Source: Chloroflexota bacterium
GTDB lineage: Bacteria; Chloroflexota; Anaerolineae; UBA2200; JACIWT01
Direction of reading: 5' to 3'
DNA: 64,000 nt
NCBI GenBank assembly: GCA_014360825.1
Contig: JACIWT010000011.1
Coordinates: 1 to 64,000 of the forward strand
The position numbers were made by a program, and so were the translations under genes. This document shows, piece after piece, positions 43,057-51,697 of the stretch; position 1 is the first letter of the stretch; each line of letters begins with the position of its first letter. Under the pieces are notes generated by a model that made no database searches, was not told the DNA's origin, and saw only the letters and a program-made list of their open reading frames with translations.

Positions 43057-46000
43057 TCACCTCCCACTGAGAGAGAAAGAAAGGGTGAGAACCAAAGAAC
43101 TTTCCTCCCCTCCCTGGCACGTCCAGACTTCGCTTGCGCCGGAGGTCTGGTAGGCAGTGATCTGGAGGGTCAGCCCTGTGCGGGTGCCACACCAGGAGCG
43201 CGCGTTATAGGTGTACATGCCGGGAGCCAGGTTCCAGTAATGCGTGCCGGGACTGAAACTGCGCGCCCCCAGGCCGATGATCTCCAATGTCAGCACACCA
43301 CCCGTCTCGTTGTTAATCTGCCAGGTGCCGCGGTTGGGCGGGAGCGACTTCAGGTCGCTCCAGGGGCTGGTGCAGCCATGACCCGTTGCCCGCACGCGGT
43401 AGAAATAGGTGGCCAGAGGATTGCGCCCTGCGAGAGCGACACTGGTGGCCGGCCCCGAGTACACCTGCGCCGGGCTAGTAAAGGGCACGTGGTCGTCCTC
43501 TTCGAGGGTATAGGTCTCGGCGTTCAGGTCGGCGCTCCACGAGACAGTGTAGTTGCCATCTCCCTCGGGGTCGCTGATCTCGTTCAGGGTCGGCTTGGCC
43601 GGACAGCCGGGCACGTACACTGAGCGAATGTTGCTCCAGGCACTGTTGCCGTAGGCGTTCTCGGCCCGGACGCGGTAGTAATAAGTAACTCCCAGCGGGC
43701 GGTCCGTCAACTCGACGCTGGTATCGGGGCCGTTGTAAACAACGTGGGGCGAGGAGAAGGCACTGTTATCGTCCTCTTGGAGGTGGTATGAGGTGGCCCA
43801 TGCCGCAGTTGTCCAGGAGACGGTGTAGCGGTTGTCGCCGTCGGCGTTATCAATGGGGTTCAACATAGGCGTGGCAGGCAGGGGCGGATAATACTTCAGG
43901 ACGATGGGCATGTACAGGTTGCCGTACCAGTTAGGCAGCGTCGGCGTAGGTGTTATGGTAGGGGCCGAGCGGATCAGGATGGCGTTCACCATAGCCTGGC
44001 CGATGACAGGCGGAAAGTCAATGTTCAACTGCCCGTCGCTCACCGTTGCCAGCAACTGGCGAGCGTAGGCGGTCTTGTTCCCAGCCAGGGCGAAGATGTC
44101 CATGTAACGCAGGATGGTCTGACCCTCCACGCGCACATCAAACACGCGCTGGTGCATCTCGGTGATGGTCAATTCGGCGAAGCGCAGTTCGATCAGATAG
44201 TTGCCGTTGGGCAGATCAAAGGCATAGCCCGACATCCCGACGCGTTGGGTCTGATAGAGGGGGTCTTCCTCGGTCAGGGTGATGGGTTCGGTAGTGGAGA
44301 CTGACCCGCCACCGATAAAACCCCAACTGCCGGGTGCATAGGGTTGATCGGCCAGCCAGGTGAGGCCATTGGGAGCAGTGTAGGCCGGGCCACCGCAGTT
44401 ATAGGCCCGTTCGTCGCCAGTCGGAGGTAGTGGGGGTGTCACTGTAGGAGTGGGCGTCGGCGTGACCAAAGTGAACGGCGCACCCAGATAGAGCCGCCCC
44501 CTGCCGAACACGTTATCCTTGCCCGGTGCGCCCAGGTCTTTGGCATTGTCCTCCAAGCACTGGCGGACGTAAGTCATGGGGCGGGTTGGGTTAGCGCCCC
44601 TCACCAGCGCCGCTGCGCCCGCCACATGCGGGCAGGCCGCAGAAGTGCCGACGAAGCCGTTGTACCCATAGCGGTTGGTGGAGACGCCACTGTAGGCGGC
44701 AATGTCCGGCTTGATCAGGCCACTTCGGGTGGGCCCACGGGAACTGAAGGGCTCGCTGGTGGCCGGATTGGAGACAGGCACTGCCCCGACGGTGAAGGAA
44801 GCAGGTGCATCAGCGGGCACGATCAGGCTGCTTCGCGCGGTGACGTGTTCCAGAATCCGGCCCGTGGGGTTGAACAAGAACAGGTCGAAGTTGGGATTAC
44901 GAGAACTATGCACTCTCCACACCGCCACGTGATAACGGCCCGACGCTGGGGCAGTGATGGTGATCTCTTCCCAAGGCTGGTGGCCGGGGTCGCCGTTCTG
45001 GCTATTGGTGGATGAGGCCACGAGCACTCGCTCCCCACTGCCAGTTTGTCGGTAGAGGTATAGGTCATAGTCATTCCCTGCCCCGCCCCAAGGATCATCC
45101 CAGCGCAAGAAAAGGTATATAGGCTCGCCGACGGAGGCGTCGAACTCGTTGGTCTCATCGCCCATGGCCCAGTTCAGCCAACCGTTGCCCTCGGGGTCGC
45201 TCCAGATCAGGTCGTAGTGGCGCTGCGCATAGTTGCCGGCGGAGTTCACCCATAGTATGCCCGCATTGGTGGCTCGGGCAACTGCGTCGCAGATGAGACC
45301 AGTGCCATCGCCAGATCCACCGCGGGGTAGGCCGGCGGAATGGGAAATGATGCTCACTCCCTGGGCGATGAGCCAGTCCACGGCGTTCAAGAAGAAAACG
45401 TCGGAGTCATAGTTCACCAGATAGAGCGACGCCTGGGGGGCCATATCGTGGACGATCTCGGCGCAGGCAGTGCCGTGGTCCTCACCGCCGCCACCGATAT
45501 CACCGCTGGAAGTGAAGGAGCGAACGGTTACGGTAGGTGGGAGTTCAGTGCCCAACAAGCCCTGGTAGCCGGTGAAACCCACGTCGAGAACGGCGATTTT
45601 CACCCCGCTGCCTTTGTGGCCGGCAGTATGCCAGGCGTTGGCATTGGAGAGGGCCACGCCCTCGCTGGTGATGGCGTTGACCACCGGGCGCGCTGGGGGG
45701 CGGACGTACTGCACACCCGGCAGATCTGCCAGTTCGGCGAGTGCTGATAGGGGAACGGACATTTGTACTAGATTGTCGTATGTGGCCTGAACGGTTGCGC
45801 CGAGGGGAGCCTTTGCGGTGATGGCATCCATCGCGTCGAGGTCAGTTTCCACAACCACCTCGACCGTAGCATCTCGCAACACTAAACCCGACTGGGCGGC
45901 GAGGGCTCTTGCGCCAGGCAAGCCCTGGCGGGAGTAAGCATCAGCCAGGGCTACCAGGGACGACGCCAGGCGAGGGTGTTTGGCAGGCGAGACAGGGGGT

Positions 46001-46110
46001 GGTGGAAGAGGATGCCCAGATGGAAGTGGCGAGGCAGCGGAGAGGGTCGCTGCCACGGTAAGTGCCAACGCCAAGGATAACGCAATGCGGCTGAACACAG
46101 ACAGACGCAC
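43057..46110 (-). CDS. Large secreted subtilisin-like (S8) protease with malectin-like and fibronectin III domains
   Basis: 1017 residues from GTG 46110, GGAGG 7 nt upstream; it begins directly with a signal peptide. Catalytic D176 (A-V-L-D-V), H212 (E-D-H-G-T-A), oxyanion N293 (S-A-G-N) and S490 (G-T-S-A-A-C-P-H-V-A-G) are all present. A beta-sandwich insert lies between N293 and S490. After a Thr/Pro linker comes a malectin-like domain (~580-720: Y-N-C-G-G-P-A-Y, F-D-V-R-V-E-G), then the motif N-L-Y-M-P-I-V-L-K, two FN3-like repeats (each W-S/T-x-E-D-D and Y-Y-R-V-R-A) and a final beta domain. Extracellular proteolysis of proteins is expected. Confidence 0.92.
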   Translation of the reverse strand: MRLSVFSRIALSLALALTVAATLSAASPLPSGHPLPPPPVSPAKHPRLASSLVALADAYSRQGLPGARALAAQSGLVLRDATVEVVVETDLDAMDAITAKAPLGATVQATYDNLVQMSVPLSALAELADLPGVQYVRPPARPVVNAITSEGVALSNANAWHTAGHKGSGVKIAVLDVGFTGYQGLLGTELPPTVTVRSFTSSGDIGGGGEDHGTACAEIVHDMAPQASLYLVNYDSDVFFLNAVDWLIAQGVSIISHSAGLPRGGSGDGTGLICDAVARATNAGILWVNSAGNYAQRHYDLIWSDPEGNGWLNWAMGDETNEFDASVGEPIYLFLRWDDPWGGAGNDYDLYLYRQTGSGERVLVASSTNSQNGDPGHQPWEEITITAPASGRYHVAVWRVHSSRNPNFDLFLFNPTGRILEHVTARSSLIVPADAPASFTVGAVPVSNPATSEPFSSRGPTRSGLIKPDIAAYSGVSTNRYGYNGFVGTSAACPHVAGAAALVRGANPTRPMTYVRQCLEDNAKDLGAPGKDNVFGRGRLYLGAPFTLVTPTPTPTVTPPLPPTGDERAYNCGGPAYTAPNGLTWLADQPYAPGSWGFIGGGSVSTTEPITLTEEDPLYQTQRVGMSGYAFDLPNGNYLIELRFAELTITEMHQRVFDVRVEGQTILRYMDIFALAGNKTAYARQLLATVSDGQLNIDFPPVIGQAMVNAILIRSAPTITPTPTLPNWYGNLYMPIVLKYYPPLPATPMLNPIDNADGDNRYTVSWTTAAWATSYHLQEDDNSAFSSPHVVYNGPDTSVELTDRPLGVTYYYRVRAENAYGNSAWSNIRSVYVPGCPAKPTLNEISDPEGDGNYTVSWSADLNAETYTLEEDDHVPFTSPAQVYSGPATSVALAGRNPLATYFYRVRATGHGCTSPWSDLKSLPPNRGTWQINNETGGVLTLEIIGLGARSFSPGTHYWNLAPGMYTYNARSWCGTRTGLTLQITAYQTSGASEVWTCQGGEESSLVLTLSFSLSGR

Positions 46111-46256
46111 GGGCTTCCCTCCAGGGGTGTTCAATGGGGATTTTAGCACAGGGAACGGGGGCTGTCAACGAATTGGGTAATGGAGAAAAGGTAGGCTGTC
46201 GCGGTATTCCACGGTTTGTCAGCCGCCTTCGCCCAATCGCAAACCTGGCCACAGTT

Positions 46257-48206
46257 TCACGACCTTCGCCAAGCCATTATCGGGAAATACAGCCGGTATG
46301 GTCTACCCCAACGAGCGATCATCCCTGTTGTGATGTCCAAATACTGGCGGGCGTAATTCTCGCTGGGCTCGATGTGGGTGTTGCTCCGGAAATCGTTCCA
46401 CGAGTTGATCACCAGCCAATCTGCTGCGCTGGCAAGCGCTGCCTCGTAGCACAGCGTGTAAGTAGCGCCATTCAGCCGAGGCCGATATTGGCCCGGGTAA
46501 CCAATGCGCCGCTGGTCACTGCCCGGAGACAGGGTCGCCACCCACAGACGTGCAGGCCTCCTCGGCGCCACAGCCGAATTGGCCCGTACTCCCACCATCC
46601 ATCGCTGATTTGCCGACGGCAGCGTATGATAAAGATAGACCGCCTCTTGCATAAGTCCATCGAAGGCAGTCAATATATCTGGGTTGGTGCTATCGGCGAT
46701 ATAGAGTGCTCCGCGGCCTTCGGTCCACAACTGCTCGAAGATATAATCCCATAAGGCAGGCGAGACCTTGTCCGCTGCACTGACCCATACTACCGGTAAC
46801 CCGCCCAGGCGATAATAGGCAGGGTGGCCACCGTAGTTATCGAGTAGATAGCGCAAGTCGCTGGTCACACCAGCAATGTTGACCTGGCCCGAAGCGTTAG
46901 ATTGACCCGCCAGCGATACACTCACGTAGAACCCCTGTCGTTCGGCTTCGGTTAGGAGGAGGGGCAAAACGGAATCGGCTCCATTTCCTGGGGACCAATT
47001 GGCCAACACGAAACCGTCTAGGAACGCCGCTTTGGCCTGAGCCACGTGTCGGGCAATAGCATCAGGGTCGCTGGAGATATAGCGTGACGCGGGGCGATCA
47101 ACGTAGATCTCGCTGTCCCAATCGGCGAGGCGCTGATAATCCGCGTGATAGGTGGCCCAGGTCAGGCGAGGCACATCGCGCCGTGCTTCATCCAGGGATA
47201 CTGGCCCAGAAGCCAATAGCAACTCGCCTGCAACTTCCAGAATTCGTGGAGTGGTATTCGATACCTCTATCTCACCCACGAGGACAGGTTGGTCTCCGTT
47301 GTAGTTGAACACTGCCACGCGGGTGGTTCCGCCGTTACCCTGCTCTATCTGCCACTCCACGGTGCCGGTGATGCTTACATTGCTGAACACGGCATCTACC
47401 ACTGCTGTCTGCTCTGGGTTGGCGGTAGTCCGTGCATTAGGCCCGCTTTGGTAGAGGATATGGCCGGAGGTTGTGGCCCCTGACCCGTTCACAGACACCA
47501 AGTACACCGCCAGGATCTTCGCCCCCTGTACCAGCGTGACTGAGGCCCAGGTGGAGGTGCTGTGTACTTCCACTCGCGTGCGCACCACGCCTTCAGGGAA
47601 CTGCGGCCCGGGGGGAACTGGATCAGCGCGACCCCTTGTGGCGCGAAGGTCGTCCAAATCGGCCTGCACGGGTCCGCCGATCACCAAGTCGGCACTGTTC
47701 ACGGTGAAGGTGGTGCTGGAAGCAGTGTGGATAGTGGCAACACAATTTTCCTGAGGTCCGTTGCCATTGGCGATGCAGGCGGTGACGTCGCCGCCAGACG
47801 ATTGCTCGACGGCGAAGGTAACGGTCGTGCCGGCAAAGGACTGAATGAGCATCAGAGCGCGGACGGAAGCCGTTACCGTTTCCATTGTGCCATTACTGGC
47901 AAGGGCTAAGCCAACGCCACTGCTCTCATCCACGAGCACGTCGGCGTCACCGCTCCAGTTGAGCACAATGACGGCAGCCACCGTTGCGCCGGATTGGAGA
48001 CGAAGCCAAGCAGATGACGTGCCGGTGGCAGTCAGGTCAAGCAAGGAGAAGTAATAGAAATCTGCCTCAGCATGAATAGGCTCTGCACTTGCAACGGTGC
48101 AACGAGTTCCAGCGGGGCTTAGGCAGGGGGCAAACCATAGCAGAGACAGGGCTATGGCCAGGGCGAGCGCGAATTTGAGAGTGCTTAAACGACAGCGTGT
48201 GGACAT
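46257..48206 (-). CDS. Secreted protein with GH99/GH71-like catalytic domain
   Basis: 649 residues with a signal peptide (L-A-L-A-I-A-L-S-L-L-W-F-A). Residues ~45-320 are two beta-rich repeats rich in Ser/Thr/Gly. From ~345 the sequence has a TIM-barrel-like pattern (W-A-T-Y-H-A-D-Y, F-V-L-A-N-W-S, G-G-L-P-V-V-W-V) ending N-S-W-N-D-F-R-S-N-T-H-I-E-P-S, the hallmark of GH99-type endo-mannosidase and WbsX-like domains. It may cut mannose-type polysaccharides. The C-terminus is Y-R-L-Y-F-P-I-M-A-W-R-R-S, a variant of the exported-protein tail motif. Confidence 0.8.
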   Translation of the reverse strand: MSTRCRLSTLKFALALAIALSLLWFAPCLSPAGTRCTVASAEPIHAEADFYYFSLLDLTATGTSSAWLRLQSGATVAAVIVLNWSGDADVLVDESSGVGLALASNGTMETVTASVRALMLIQSFAGTTVTFAVEQSSGGDVTACIANGNGPQENCVATIHTASSTTFTVNSADLVIGGPVQADLDDLRATRGRADPVPPGPQFPEGVVRTRVEVHSTSTWASVTLVQGAKILAVYLVSVNGSGATTSGHILYQSGPNARTTANPEQTAVVDAVFSNVSITGTVEWQIEQGNGGTTRVAVFNYNGDQPVLVGEIEVSNTTPRILEVAGELLLASGPVSLDEARRDVPRLTWATYHADYQRLADWDSEIYVDRPASRYISSDPDAIARHVAQAKAAFLDGFVLANWSPGNGADSVLPLLLTEAERQGFYVSVSLAGQSNASGQVNIAGVTSDLRYLLDNYGGHPAYYRLGGLPVVWVSAADKVSPALWDYIFEQLWTEGRGALYIADSTNPDILTAFDGLMQEAVYLYHTLPSANQRWMVGVRANSAVAPRRPARLWVATLSPGSDQRRIGYPGQYRPRLNGATYTLCYEAALASAADWLVINSWNDFRSNTHIEPSENYARQYLDITTGMIARWGRPYRLYFPIMAWRRS

Positions 48207-48459: not shown

Positions 48460-48747
48460 ATGAACCTGAAAACGGGCAAAAGACTTGCCAACGTGAGTTG
48501 GCTCTCCATAGATCAGAAAAGAAAACTTGCCGAAATCTCCATCACCACGGTTCCGGAATTCATCGCCCTGGCGCATTTCGACTCCCGCAATCTGGCGCGT
48601 TATCTGGGCATCAAAACCCGCGAGTTACGAACCTTGAAGAAGGAGGCTACCGCCGAGATCCCAGAGTCGCAACTCAGCCGCATCCTAAAAGCGCCGAAGG
48701 AGGAGTTTGTCACCGGCGCGCTGCCGCCTACCAAAGCAGACCGTTAG
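48460..48747 (+). CDS. Stand-alone homologue of the neighbouring protease's pro-region
   Basis: 95 residues, no signal peptide. It aligns with the first ~95 residues of the next gene: L-S-I-D-Q-K-R-K-L-A-E-I-S-I-T-T-V against L-S-P-D-Q-I-R-A-L-E-A-L-S-I-T-R-V, a middle helical part, then E-E-F-V-T-G-A-L-P-P against E-E-Y-A-M-G-A-L-P-P. The helical region looks like a helix-hairpin-helix/SAM-type fold. It ends five residues after G-A-L-P-P. It could be an inhibitor, chaperone, or substrate of the protease; no family recognised. Confidence 0.75.
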   Translation: MNLKTGKRLANVSWLSIDQKRKLAEISITTVPEFIALAHFDSRNLARYLGIKTRELRTLKKEATAEIPESQLSRILKAPKEEFVTGALPPTKADR

Positions 48748-48781
48748 TCCAACACAACCGTCCCAGAAAGGAGCATTGAGC

Positions 48782-49840
48782 GTGGTCAAAGAGATCGGAA
48801 CCCCATTGAGCCAGACAGACTTGAGTCCAGATCAAATTCGGGCACTAGAGGCGCTTTCCATCACCCGGGTCGAGGAGTTGCTCGGCCTGCCTCCCTATTA
48901 TCTAAACAAATTAGCACCCTATATCCCAGATTTTGCCAAAGTGAAGAAGTGGGTGAGTGCACAAACCCCTCCGCAGATGGAAGTCGCCGCAGAGACAGGC
49001 ACCGAAGCCGCAGAGGTGGACCTTGCAGCCGAGGAATATGCGATGGGTGCGCTGCCGCCTCGACGCCAACTGGCTCACATGGAAGCCCAGTTCTTCATCC
49101 CGGAGCAGCCGAATGCTGCTCTGGCCGAAGCGCAGGGCGAACGGGCAGTGAATTTGGTAGCCCATTTTCCACCCGTACGGGATCAGGGGCGCCGCGGCAC
49201 TTGTGTGGCCTACGCGGTGGTCGCGATGCGCGAGTACGCTTACAAACTCAAGAACGGCGAGGAAGTCGCCCTTTCAGAGCAGTTCCTTTACTGGTTGTGC
49301 AAGGAGAACGATAACCGCCCGCGGTCCCATGGCACTTTCGCCATGATCGCCGTGCCCATCGCGGTGCGATTCGGAATATGTTTGGCCACCACCTGGCCTT
49401 ATAACCCTGAACCTATGGAAGACAACGAAGGCCAGGGGCCACCGCCAGAGGGGGCAATGGAAGAGGCCTCGCGATACAAGGTTCGGCAGGGGCTTGTCTT
49501 AGACCCGCGTTCGGTGGAGGACATCCAGGAGCGGCTGGAGAACGGTTATCCAGTGGCGGTCAGCATTCCCGCCTACAGGAGTTGGTTGCTGAACCCCGTG
49601 GTGCGGCGCACTGGCAACATCCAGATGCCCGTCCCTGGGACGCGGGCCAGTGGTGGTCATGCTGTGCTCATCGTGGGGTTTGGCGCAGACCCGGAATTTG
49701 CCGGCGGCGGTTATTTTATCGTGCGCAATAGTTGGGGGACGCGCTGGGGCGTGGAAAGCCCCTTCGGCGTCGGCTATGGGACGCTCCCCTACAACTATAT
49801 CCGCTACTACGGCTGGGAGGCTTTCAGCTGTAACGACTGA
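48782..49840 (+). CDS. Papain-like (C1A) cysteine protease with novel-looking N-terminal domain
   Basis: 352 residues from GTG 48782, AGGAG 8 nt upstream. Catalytic set complete: Q134 in V-R-D-Q-G, C140 in R-R-G-T-C-V-A-Y-A, H292 in S-G-G-H-A-V-L-I-V-G, N315 in V-R-N-S-W-G-T-R-W-G. Residues 1-92 form a helical pro-like domain ending G-A-L-P-P, homologous to the upstream 95-residue protein. No signal peptide or membrane segment, so it is probably cytoplasmic, unusual for C1A enzymes. Probably one transcript with the gene upstream. Confidence 0.9.
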   Translation: MVKEIGTPLSQTDLSPDQIRALEALSITRVEELLGLPPYYLNKLAPYIPDFAKVKKWVSAQTPPQMEVAAETGTEAAEVDLAAEEYAMGALPPRRQLAHMEAQFFIPEQPNAALAEAQGERAVNLVAHFPPVRDQGRRGTCVAYAVVAMREYAYKLKNGEEVALSEQFLYWLCKENDNRPRSHGTFAMIAVPIAVRFGICLATTWPYNPEPMEDNEGQGPPPEGAMEEASRYKVRQGLVLDPRSVEDIQERLENGYPVAVSIPAYRSWLLNPVVRRTGNIQMPVPGTRASGGHAVLIVGFGADPEFAGGGYFIVRNSWGTRWGVESPFGVGYGTLPYNYIRYYGWEAFSCND

Positions 49841-49907: not shown

Positions 49908-50153
49908 TTAGGTTGATGGACCTCTGGTCAAGACCTGCCCAACGACGAATGCCAGCACGAACCAAATAACGATATTCAGCACCAGATTGACCCAATTCAC
50001 CGTCCAGTCTGCACCTGGGTAGACAACGCGAGTCAACCAGGTGAAAGGCAGGCCGCGGTTCGTCGCCCCTAATAAGTGGCGCACATCGAACAGGCCAGTG
50101 AACAGTGTGATCACTGCGCTGATTCCCAAAGCGATGACTGCTTTTCTCAGCAT
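49908..50153 (-). CDS. Small two-helix membrane protein, coupled to the DUF89 gene
   Basis: 81 residues; ATG 50153 overlaps the end of the DUF89 gene by 7 nt. Two hydrophobic segments (V-I-A-L-G-I-S-A-V-I-T-L-F-T-G-L-F and L-V-L-N-I-V-I-W-F-V-L-A-F-V-V-G). Not recognised. Confidence 0.7.
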   Translation of the reverse strand: MLRKAVIALGISAVITLFTGLFDVRHLLGATNRGLPFTWLTRVVYPGADWTVNWVNLVLNIVIWFVLAFVVGQVLTRGPST

Positions 50154-51445
50154 TGCTTACCCTCCGTTTGCTTTTGGGGCTCCACCAACTGGATAAGCCC
50201 ACGTTGCCCATTTACCATCCAATTTGGATCCTCTTCAAATAATCGGTTCACTCGCTCCGGGGTTAAGTCCAGTATCACTTCCGCTTTCATCGTGCGCAGG
50301 GACAGGAAAGGAGCGGGGAAATAGGCCGCCACCTCGGATAGACGCGTGGTGCAGGGCCAATGCCGGTCGCCCACCAGCCGGCGATAGTTGAGATCCCCCT
50401 TGAGCACAACGAGATCAGCCTGCCCCAGTTCCTGCCGTAGCGATGGCCACAGCGCAGGATAGCAGAACGGACTGGTCCAGAACCAGTGGTCCAACAAGCA
50501 CACACGTCCAGCAGCAATGTAATCCTGCACGGCCGCCGTCAGCGCTTGCACTGCAGTGCTCTCCGCCCCGGCCAGGAATTCCAGCGCCTCATACACGTCG
50601 GCCACCATCGCATCGGAGATGTAAAACGGCTGTGCCTTCAGGTGGAACGCCACCTCGTGCACTCCCGCGCGGTGTATCAAGGCATCGGCCAGGGCCAGGT
50701 CATAGAGTAGCTCCAGACCGGCGTTATCGGCGATAATGTCCACCCGCCGATGTCGGCCACCCGATAGGGTAGCGACAGCACGGGGCGTGTCGTCAATCAG
50801 CAAGTTCTGGCGTTCGCGAACGATGTCCGGCACCCCTTTGGCTCGCTCGGCCACAGCCCGGTAACTTAGGTCCGCGCGGTTGCTCCACAGGTTGTAGTGC
50901 AGGAGGGCGGTAAGGGCGTCGGCGCGGTCCAGGCTGGCCAACGACTCATAGACTGGTGTGAATTGAGTGATGGCCCCACTGGGTTCGGTGTAATGAGCGC
51001 GTTTAATGACCGCGTAAGGATCGAAACCCTGCCAAGGCCCTGGCTGAAAGTACCCCGTGGCCTCCAGAATGCGCCGGTGCAGGTAAGCCTCGGCGAAATA
51101 CCAAGGCAATTCAAACCAACTTTTGCCCCGATGGGGAGTCCAGGCCCAGTCCCAGAGAGCGCGATCGGGAGCATCTTCTGTGAGCGGGCGGACGGGATGC
51201 CGGCCTGTGATCTCCCGTTCAATGGCCAGTATGCGGCGAGCAATGGAGGAGGGGAAGGCATTGTGGGCCACCACGTCGCGGATGAGGCGGGGGATACGCT
51301 GGCGCACGGTATCATAGGCAAAGGAACCCAATTCCGCAATCAGGAGAGGCGGTGGAAGTGTGGGGTCATCGGAGCCCACTAAGCAGTTGAGTTCTTCTAT
51401 AGTGGGGTAGCGCCTGGCATCCTCGAGAACTCTCTGGAGTGACAT
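50147..51445 (-). CDS. DUF89/ARMT1-family damage-control phosphatase
   Basis: 432 residues from ATG 51445; the longer frame runs through tRNA-His and is not real. Metal-binding and catalytic motifs I-A-D-N-A-G-L-E-L-L-Y-D and L-K-G-D-L-N-Y-R-R-L-V-G-D-R-H-W match the family. Members remove phosphate from damaged or excess sugar and nucleotide phosphates, such as fructose-1-phosphate. The stop overlaps the small membrane protein gene. Confidence 0.9.
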   Translation of the reverse strand: MSLQRVLEDARRYPTIEELNCLVGSDDPTLPPPLLIAELGSFAYDTVRQRIPRLIRDVVAHNAFPSSIARRILAIEREITGRHPVRPLTEDAPDRALWDWAWTPHRGKSWFELPWYFAEAYLHRRILEATGYFQPGPWQGFDPYAVIKRAHYTEPSGAITQFTPVYESLASLDRADALTALLHYNLWSNRADLSYRAVAERAKGVPDIVRERQNLLIDDTPRAVATLSGGRHRRVDIIADNAGLELLYDLALADALIHRAGVHEVAFHLKAQPFYISDAMVADVYEALEFLAGAESTAVQALTAAVQDYIAAGRVCLLDHWFWTSPFCYPALWPSLRQELGQADLVVLKGDLNYRRLVGDRHWPCTTRLSEVAAYFPAPFLSLRTMKAEVILDLTPERVNRLFEEDPNWMVNGQRGLIQLVEPQKQTEGKQC

Positions 51446-51545
51446 GGTAGGTGGGATTCTACCATAGGTGAGGGTAGATGTCAATGATTCGCGGTGCCAC
51501 ATAAATGGCCTGCGCCCGTATAGGCGGGGCAGGCCAATCAATTGG

Positions 51546-51619
51546 GGTGAGCGGAGGGATTCGAACCCTCGATCGCCTGGGCCACAACCAGGAGCCTTAA
51601 CCGCTCGGCTACGCTCACC
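51546..51619 (-). tRNA. tRNA-His (GTG)
   Basis: Minus strand GGTGAGCG-TA start shows the extra G(-1) pairing with C73, specific to tRNA-His. Anticodon stem CCTGG/CCAGG with loop TTGTGGC giving GTG, T loop TTCGAAT. No encoded CCA. Confidence 0.95.
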
Positions 51620-51697
51620 ATTTCTCAAAAGATATTATAGCGCAAAATGGCAAAGGTGCAAAACGCCCAAAAGCCTTCGTGCGGGCAACGGCGAAGA

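Follow-up and report, generated by a model that had tools for sequence, protein, structure and literature searches.

The window, the whole stretch of 64,000 nucleotides analysed here, harbors two adjacent genes on the forward strand, which encode a papain-like protease and a small protein related to the N-terminal region of that protease. Their organization is as follows:

48460..48747, + strand: free pro-domain protein of 95 aa, an ATG ORF with homology to the pro-regions of the neighbouring and of other proteases
48709..48729, + strand: free-protein motif V-T-G-A-L-P-P at residues 84-90, five residues from the C-terminus
48776..49840, + strand: C1 (papain-family) cysteine protease of 354 aa (Pfam Peptidase_C1)
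48776..49069, + strand: protease pro-region, residues 1-98, with homology to the free protein
49043..49060, + strand: protease motif M-G-A-L-P-P (residues 90-95) with the invariant Gly91, the proposed cleft-plugging segment

The protease starts with TTG at 48776 or, alternatively, with GTG at 48782, an AGGAG-like ribosome site is located ahead, and the gap between the free ORF and the TTG start amounts to 28 bp. The free protein is composed of a helix-hairpin-helix-like (HhH-like) helical domain (about residues 15-80) and a C-terminal tail with VTGALPP; as the initial annotation had stated, it ends five residues after G-A-L-P-P. By inspection, a signal-peptide-like N-terminus is absent from both window proteins, which accordingly look cytoplasmic from their sequences, in line with the location assumed at the outset. 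The protease exhibits a clear Peptidase_C1 match (PF00112; E 4.7e-19, 69.8 bits vs a cut-off of 20.7), the window free protein has no significant match in Pfam, and its family has none in Pfam, NCBIfam or PADLOC. The surrounding genes, namely those for a subtilase with a malectin domain (43057-46149, minus strand), a GH99-like protein (46257-48206, minus strand) and an ARMT1-like protein (50147-51628, minus strand), show no evident link to the pair. The source genome contains a second, distant C1 protease (G000:C9:18758-19429, L024) with 28% identity over the catalytic part, for which no pro-domain copy was detected.

In a single BLASTP comparison, residues 15-92 of the free protein pair with protease residues 16-97 at 30% identity (E=4e-7), and GALPP closes both aligned segments. 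A profile of the pro-regions of other proteases, built without either window protein and without any free copy, assigns 55.5 bits to the free protein (E 3e-19 for one sequence), and the best of 2000 shuffles of this protein reaches 8.0 bits. At the level of sequence these comparisons confirm the initial proposal that the free protein is a stand-alone copy of the pro-domain of the neighbouring protease. In the shared module, a linker connects an HhH-like (DUF4332-like) domain to a motif of the form (L/T)-G-(A/L)-(L/I/V). The search for related loci with the single free protein as query returned no matches and required an alignment.

The AF2 model of the free protein (mean pLDDT 84) predicts helices at residues 17-25, 31-40, 42-49, 53-65 and 69-77 followed by a low-confidence tail. 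Its best Foldseek matches are the HhH domains of RAD51/RadA (N-terminal domain) and of the RNA polymerase alpha CTD, with a best E of 0.14 (prob 0.97) and a TMt of 0.70 for the N-terminal domain of RAD51C. Weak Pfam matches to DUF4332/HhH (PF14229, PF14520) occur in 2/8, 3/61 and 3/16 sequences of three scans, and those to DUF4332 (E 0.0007-0.003 in few members) fall below the cut-off. Since the fold matches are weak and the DUF4332 matches few and below the cut-off, the HhH-like identity of the module is probable rather than proven. No I29 match was obtained in the Pfam scans of free copies or pro-regions, so that the fold apparently differs from that of I29, as originally supposed; a very remote kinship is possible. 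Pfam also matched the free protein to Calmod_bind_M, PhyR_sigma-like and Death, but with E above 0.006 and without general recurrence among its relatives, so that these matches were discarded; the TAL-effector repeat matches in the PDB were discarded as spurious because they cover about 20 profile residues in repeat proteins. DUF4332/HhH domains probably resemble the shared module in fold, but typical HhH members are nucleic-acid-associated, and we know of none that carries a G-A-L tail.

The search of named genomes driven by the catalytic domain provided 80 protease loci from Chloroflexota, Planctomycetota, Acidobacteriota, Verrucomicrobiota, Pseudomonadota, Bacteroidota, Myxococcota, Clostridia and Thermoplasmata, and all 61 relatives scanned (61/61) match Peptidase_C1 in Pfam. 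The 354-aa protease of the window has no C-terminal extension; enzymes of about 620-680 aa from the same class, which do have C-terminal extensions, and enzymes of about 940-1040 aa from Chloroflexia likewise carry the N-terminal module ahead of the catalytic domain. A few relatives (L131, L144, L168) begin with signal-peptide-like stretches and are apparently secreted, which fits a zymogen pro-region. For the window protease, AF2 yields a model of high overall confidence (mean pLDDT 91, pTM 0.91), including the helical pro-domain. Xylellain (PDB 3ois) represents the closest solved structure both by sequence (E 5.8e-40) and by fold (Z 28.6, rmsd 3.0 over 240 residues, model residues 78-354). 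A protease with 97% identity to that of the window is located on a 3.2-kb contig from another Chloroflexi bin (L120, JADBJK010000095.1; G459:C31, L118), but it is cut off inside the pro-region, so the presence of a free gene cannot be judged there, and the assignment of the bin to a different family suggests that the contig may be misbinned. Two relatives have unusual architectures: a Myxococcales ORF (L193:13-3288) fuses the pro-domain and the C1 protease to a DEAD/DEAH helicase, and a Clostridia protease (L137:5980-9045) carries a Cys-rich repetitive C-terminal tail (KPIVLCKPS-like), and the protein encoded after it is of the radical SAM/SPASM type and contains a PqqD domain, an arrangement that might be of the modified-peptide (RiPP-like) kind. 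A viral origin of the pair is unsupported because viral relatives align almost exclusively over the catalytic domain.

Our alignment of 61 proteases showed that the motif Gly (window residue 91) is the sole invariant residue of the pro-region, and that the catalytic residues Q137, C143, H295 and N318 (window numbering) are likewise invariant. In the window protease Gly91 is located 52 residues ahead of Cys143, and thus the motif precedes the catalytic domain as first described; across the 61 proteases this spacing ranges from 41 to 60 residues with a median of 45. The Gly is mostly followed by Ala or Leu and then by Leu, Ile or Val, and these residues vary. The catalytic Cys of cathepsin L is Cys25, so that with a proregion of 96 residues Gly77 of procathepsin L is located 44 residues before it. 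This Gly is part of the cleft-contacting sequence M75-N-G-F-Q79 (PMC4089206). By position, the motif thus appears to correspond to the zymogen segment that crosses the active-site cleft in procathepsin L and in the propeptide-like inhibitors BCPI and crammer, and we infer the same cleft position for the window protease. The sequence S-G-Y-G-Y-I-P of xylellain aligns with G-A-L-P-P, residue 92 is an isolated bridge residue according to DSSP on the AF2 model, and its predicted bridge partner may be T187 from the conserved G186-T187, which presumably occupies the place of Gly65-Gly66 of papain. The free copies terminate 5-40 residues past the motif, with tails such as YGLGALPP (L136), FGLGAVIED (L137), GLGALRP (L175), PLGALPE (L129) and PTGAL (L128, L143); L125, L148 and L155 have a looser form of the motif.

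A profile search for further pairs identified a free copy adjoining a C1 protease in 17 of the 80 loci, additional to the window. They belong to Anaerolineae (L125, L129, L139, L155), Phycisphaerae (L128, L143), Verrucomicrobia (L133, L146, L148, L163), Bradyrhizobium (L158, L167), Methylococcaceae (L136), Cytophagaceae (L175), Clostridia (L137), an unclassified bacterium (L142) and an archaeon of the Thermoplasmata (L123); the range of the free form thus comprises Chloroflexota, Planctomycetota, Verrucomicrobiota, Pseudomonadota, Bacteroidota and Clostridia as well as an archaeon. The two genes overlap by 4 bp in L142 and L143 and by 26 bp in L129, are 3 bp apart in L125 and are elsewhere separated by gaps of up to 359 bp. 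The pair is divergently oriented in L137, and L148 and L175 have the free gene downstream on the opposite strand; its persistence in differing orientations points to a functional linkage. One free protein (L139:5037-5726) contains two domains in tandem, and in Methylococcaceae (L136:1494-2282) the free pro-domain is part of a 263-aa ORF whose N-terminal part opens with a lipoprotein-like signal stretch, for which a fusion and an internal start are both possible.

The 12 re-searched genomes with a free copy contain exactly one high-scoring representative each, located beside the protease. No strong free match away from an adjacent protease was found in about 1,800 genomes, for the large sets of which the best 12-16 first-look candidates per genome were scored, so that a weak unlinked free copy could be missed. 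Neither the 396 Anaerolineae nor the samples from three other groups yielded a high-scoring unlinked free copy, and among the 288, 297 and 296 genomes that represent these three groups the genome used as centre alone harbors a strong free copy. Weaker matches (E above about 1e-7) are DUF4332-like ORFs of 135-200 aa or unrelated HhH proteins. The HhH fold is common, but the free copies of this family were found only beside C1 proteases. Together with the conservation of the motif, this speaks against the conditions under which the initial annotation would have been refuted, namely a widespread domain unrelated to proteases or a motif without conservation. The pair is rare: most proteases of this type, including all those of Chloroflexia, lack an adjacent free copy, so that the free gene is dispensable. 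Neither a genomic partner nor a defence-island context of the pair was constant among the loci, and hints of PglW/BREX were discarded as far below the cut-off. Caspase (C14) plus FGE-sulfatase-domain proteins are encoded near the pair in two Phycisphaerae (L128:7380-9335, L143:5268-7097), and kinase plus FGE-sulfatase proteins in L142.

The sole close pair available, from two Bradyrhizobium genomes, shows that the free gene is under strong purifying selection, with 17 synonymous and 3 nonsynonymous differences (pN/pS 0.058); the corresponding pN/pS of the protease is 0.18, and that of the window protease vs its 97%-identical L120 copy is 0.055. The distances of 16 free copies correlate with those of the catalytic domains (Mantel r 0.51, p 5e-5), which shows shared inheritance, not contact. 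The own partner is closest (rank 1) in 4 of 16 loci, and the free copies are not consistently nearest to their own protease. In the poorly resolved tree they are more clustered than shuffled labels, with seven label changes, and the topology is compatible both with one origin of the free form and with several separate ones.

The most likely explanation, to which we assign a probability of roughly 0.6, is that the locus encodes an intracellular papain-like protease of the zymogen type together with a stand-alone copy of its pro-domain, which inhibits the neighbouring enzyme in trans. In cis, the HhH-like domain of the protease would pack alongside its catalytic domain; G-A-L-(x)-P-P would run across the cleft like the Met-Asn-Gly-Phe segment of procathepsin L. 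The free protein bears both elements, the HhH-like domain and the C-terminal G-A-L tail, and could bind the same protease surface in trans, its domain docking and its tail entering the cleft, thereby keeping the protease off; alternatively, it may mop up protease whose own pro-region has been moved or removed. This inhibitor reading is favored by a homology far above chance, the invariant motif Gly, the recurrence of the linkage across phyla, the confident zymogen model, the xylellain alignment that runs across the motif, the need of crammer and BCPI for the matching Gly region, the correlated divergence of free copies and catalytic domains, and the low pN/pS of the Bradyrhizobium free gene. 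It is weakened by the looser motif of some free copies (L125, L148, L155), by the identity of only about 30% between the window free copy and the pro-region of its neighbour, by the inconsistent ranking of the own partner, by the dispensability of the free gene, and by the observation that the homologous Gly of CTLA-2alpha is mutable without loss (PMC4089206). The motif Gly provides a single-residue prediction from the pair.

The initial annotation left the choice between a protease-inhibitor and a protease-substrate module, perhaps with cleavage at G-A-L-P-P; the inhibitor is the probable part, and cleavage at this site found no support. As a substrate or activator, the free protein would be cut near G-A-L-P-P, and either the product or competition with the own pro-region would activate the protease or signal onward. 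The identity of the free motif with the sequence preceding the catalytic domain, the end of the free copies soon after it and a low-confidence, probably flexible tail in the AF2 model are consistent with such a role. We nevertheless regard it as unlikely, because the motif is placed where other papain-family zymogens and the propeptide inhibitors have a cleft segment that binds non-productively (PMC4089206; xylellain alignment), the pro/mature junction would fall about 20 residues past it, and the residues following the Gly vary. In terms of position, the cleft-crossing segment is accordingly to be read as a putative active-site plug, not as an established cleavage site.

It is a little harder to envisage that the HhH-like domains of both proteins pair in the style of Death domains and recruit or cluster the protease, without inhibition at the active site. 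The tandem free protein of L139, weak Death-domain/FADD matches (E 0.13 and about 0.1) and the proximity of caspase-FGE-sulfatase genes in L128 and L143 would suit an adaptor or scaffold, but the Death matches are not significant and the model resembles HhH domains (RAD51/RadA, RNA polymerase alpha CTD). Moreover, an adaptor has no need of the G-A-L tail, yet most free copies have kept it, and there is no constant third partner. A folding helper comparable to an intramolecular chaperone, supplied in trans and inhibitory only incidentally, would have a parallel in the free propeptide homologue CTLA-2alpha, which stabilises cathepsin L at neutral pH (PMC4089206), but each protease already possesses its own pro-region in cis, which makes this role very improbable. 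A functionless relic, left when the 5' end of a protease gene was duplicated and truncated, would agree with several separate origins (seven label changes) and with the missing free gene beside most proteases. It is already disfavored to the point of being barely credible, since the ORFs have stayed intact across several phyla, the one close pair is under strong purifying selection (17 synonymous vs 3 nonsynonymous changes) and the free copies are linked exclusively to proteases.

The self-locked protease and its diffusible lock could form an intracellular control module, sporadically distributed over bacterial phyla and an archaeon, that acts as a toxin-antitoxin or abortive-like switch and represents a prokaryotic counterpart of the propeptide-type cathepsin inhibitors, evolved independently on an HhH fold; this extension is tentative, and we consider it rather doubtful. 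If it were true, losing or removing the free pro-domain would unleash the protease inside the cell. The pair would offer a compact genetically encoded candidate inhibitor-protease system for testing zymogen control inside prokaryotic cells.

Several known systems share individual traits with the pair. Among solved structures, xylellain is nearest to the catalytic domain; in its crystal the N-terminal segment blocks the active site, and G-Y-G-Y-I-P of this segment aligns with G-A-L-P-P; the profile match, however, begins at position 78 and leaves the HhH-like domain unaligned, and we know of no free pro-domain copy for xylellain. The inhibitor genes of staphostatins and of Bacteroides Bfi adjoin cysteine protease genes, and their products are lipocalin-like and unrelated to the pro-regions of their proteases (PMC2873492). 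Stand-alone homologues of a C1 protease pro-region exist in animals as I29 propeptide-like inhibitors, namely CTLA-2alpha, Drosophila crammer and Bombyx BCPI (PMC4089206), a likeness of architecture, not of membership. Crammer and BCPI depend on a critical C-terminal Gly-containing cleft segment, with the protein ending soon after it: the exchange G73A, which affects the important C-G residues of crammer, increases the Ki over 200-fold, and L77A/G78A, which affects the important L-G residues of BCPI, over 500-fold (PMC4089206). The C-terminus of BCPI, RLGLRLPAKKT (PMC4089206), is close in layout to VTGALPPTKADR. The difference resides in the helical I29 domain of these inhibitors versus the HhH-like domain of the pair. 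They are animal genes and, to our knowledge, not known as linked protease-inhibitor pairs.

The Spi gene of Streptococcus pyogenes is located next to that of the C10 protease SpeB, with which it is co-transcribed, and encodes an inhibitor homologous to the pro-region (Kagawa 2005, as cited in PMC2873492). The window and the 17 further loci conform to this scheme in that the gene beside the papain-clan protease is small and its product is homologous to the pro-region of this very protease, and close or overlapping genes in several pair loci are compatible with co-transcription. In contrast to SpeB, the window protease belongs to family C1 and not to C10 according to Pfam, and the pair spans several phyla and an archaeon. 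Whereas SpeB is secreted, the window pair looks cytoplasmic, and Spi is not known to us to be HhH/DUF4332-like, unlike the pro-domain described here. The principle of a free pro-region inhibitor is thus already known from the animal I29 proteins and from Spi/SpeB; a limited literature search found no earlier description of this fold or this protease family in such a role, of the range of phyla, or of bacterial and archaeal genes paired in this way. In view of their joint recurrence in several bacterial phyla and an archaeon, the two genes probably represent an overlooked protease-inhibitor pair on a fold different from the known ones, which, if true, would document a convergent strategy for controlling papain-like proteases that employs a different domain with C1 enzymes in several phyla and an archaeon.
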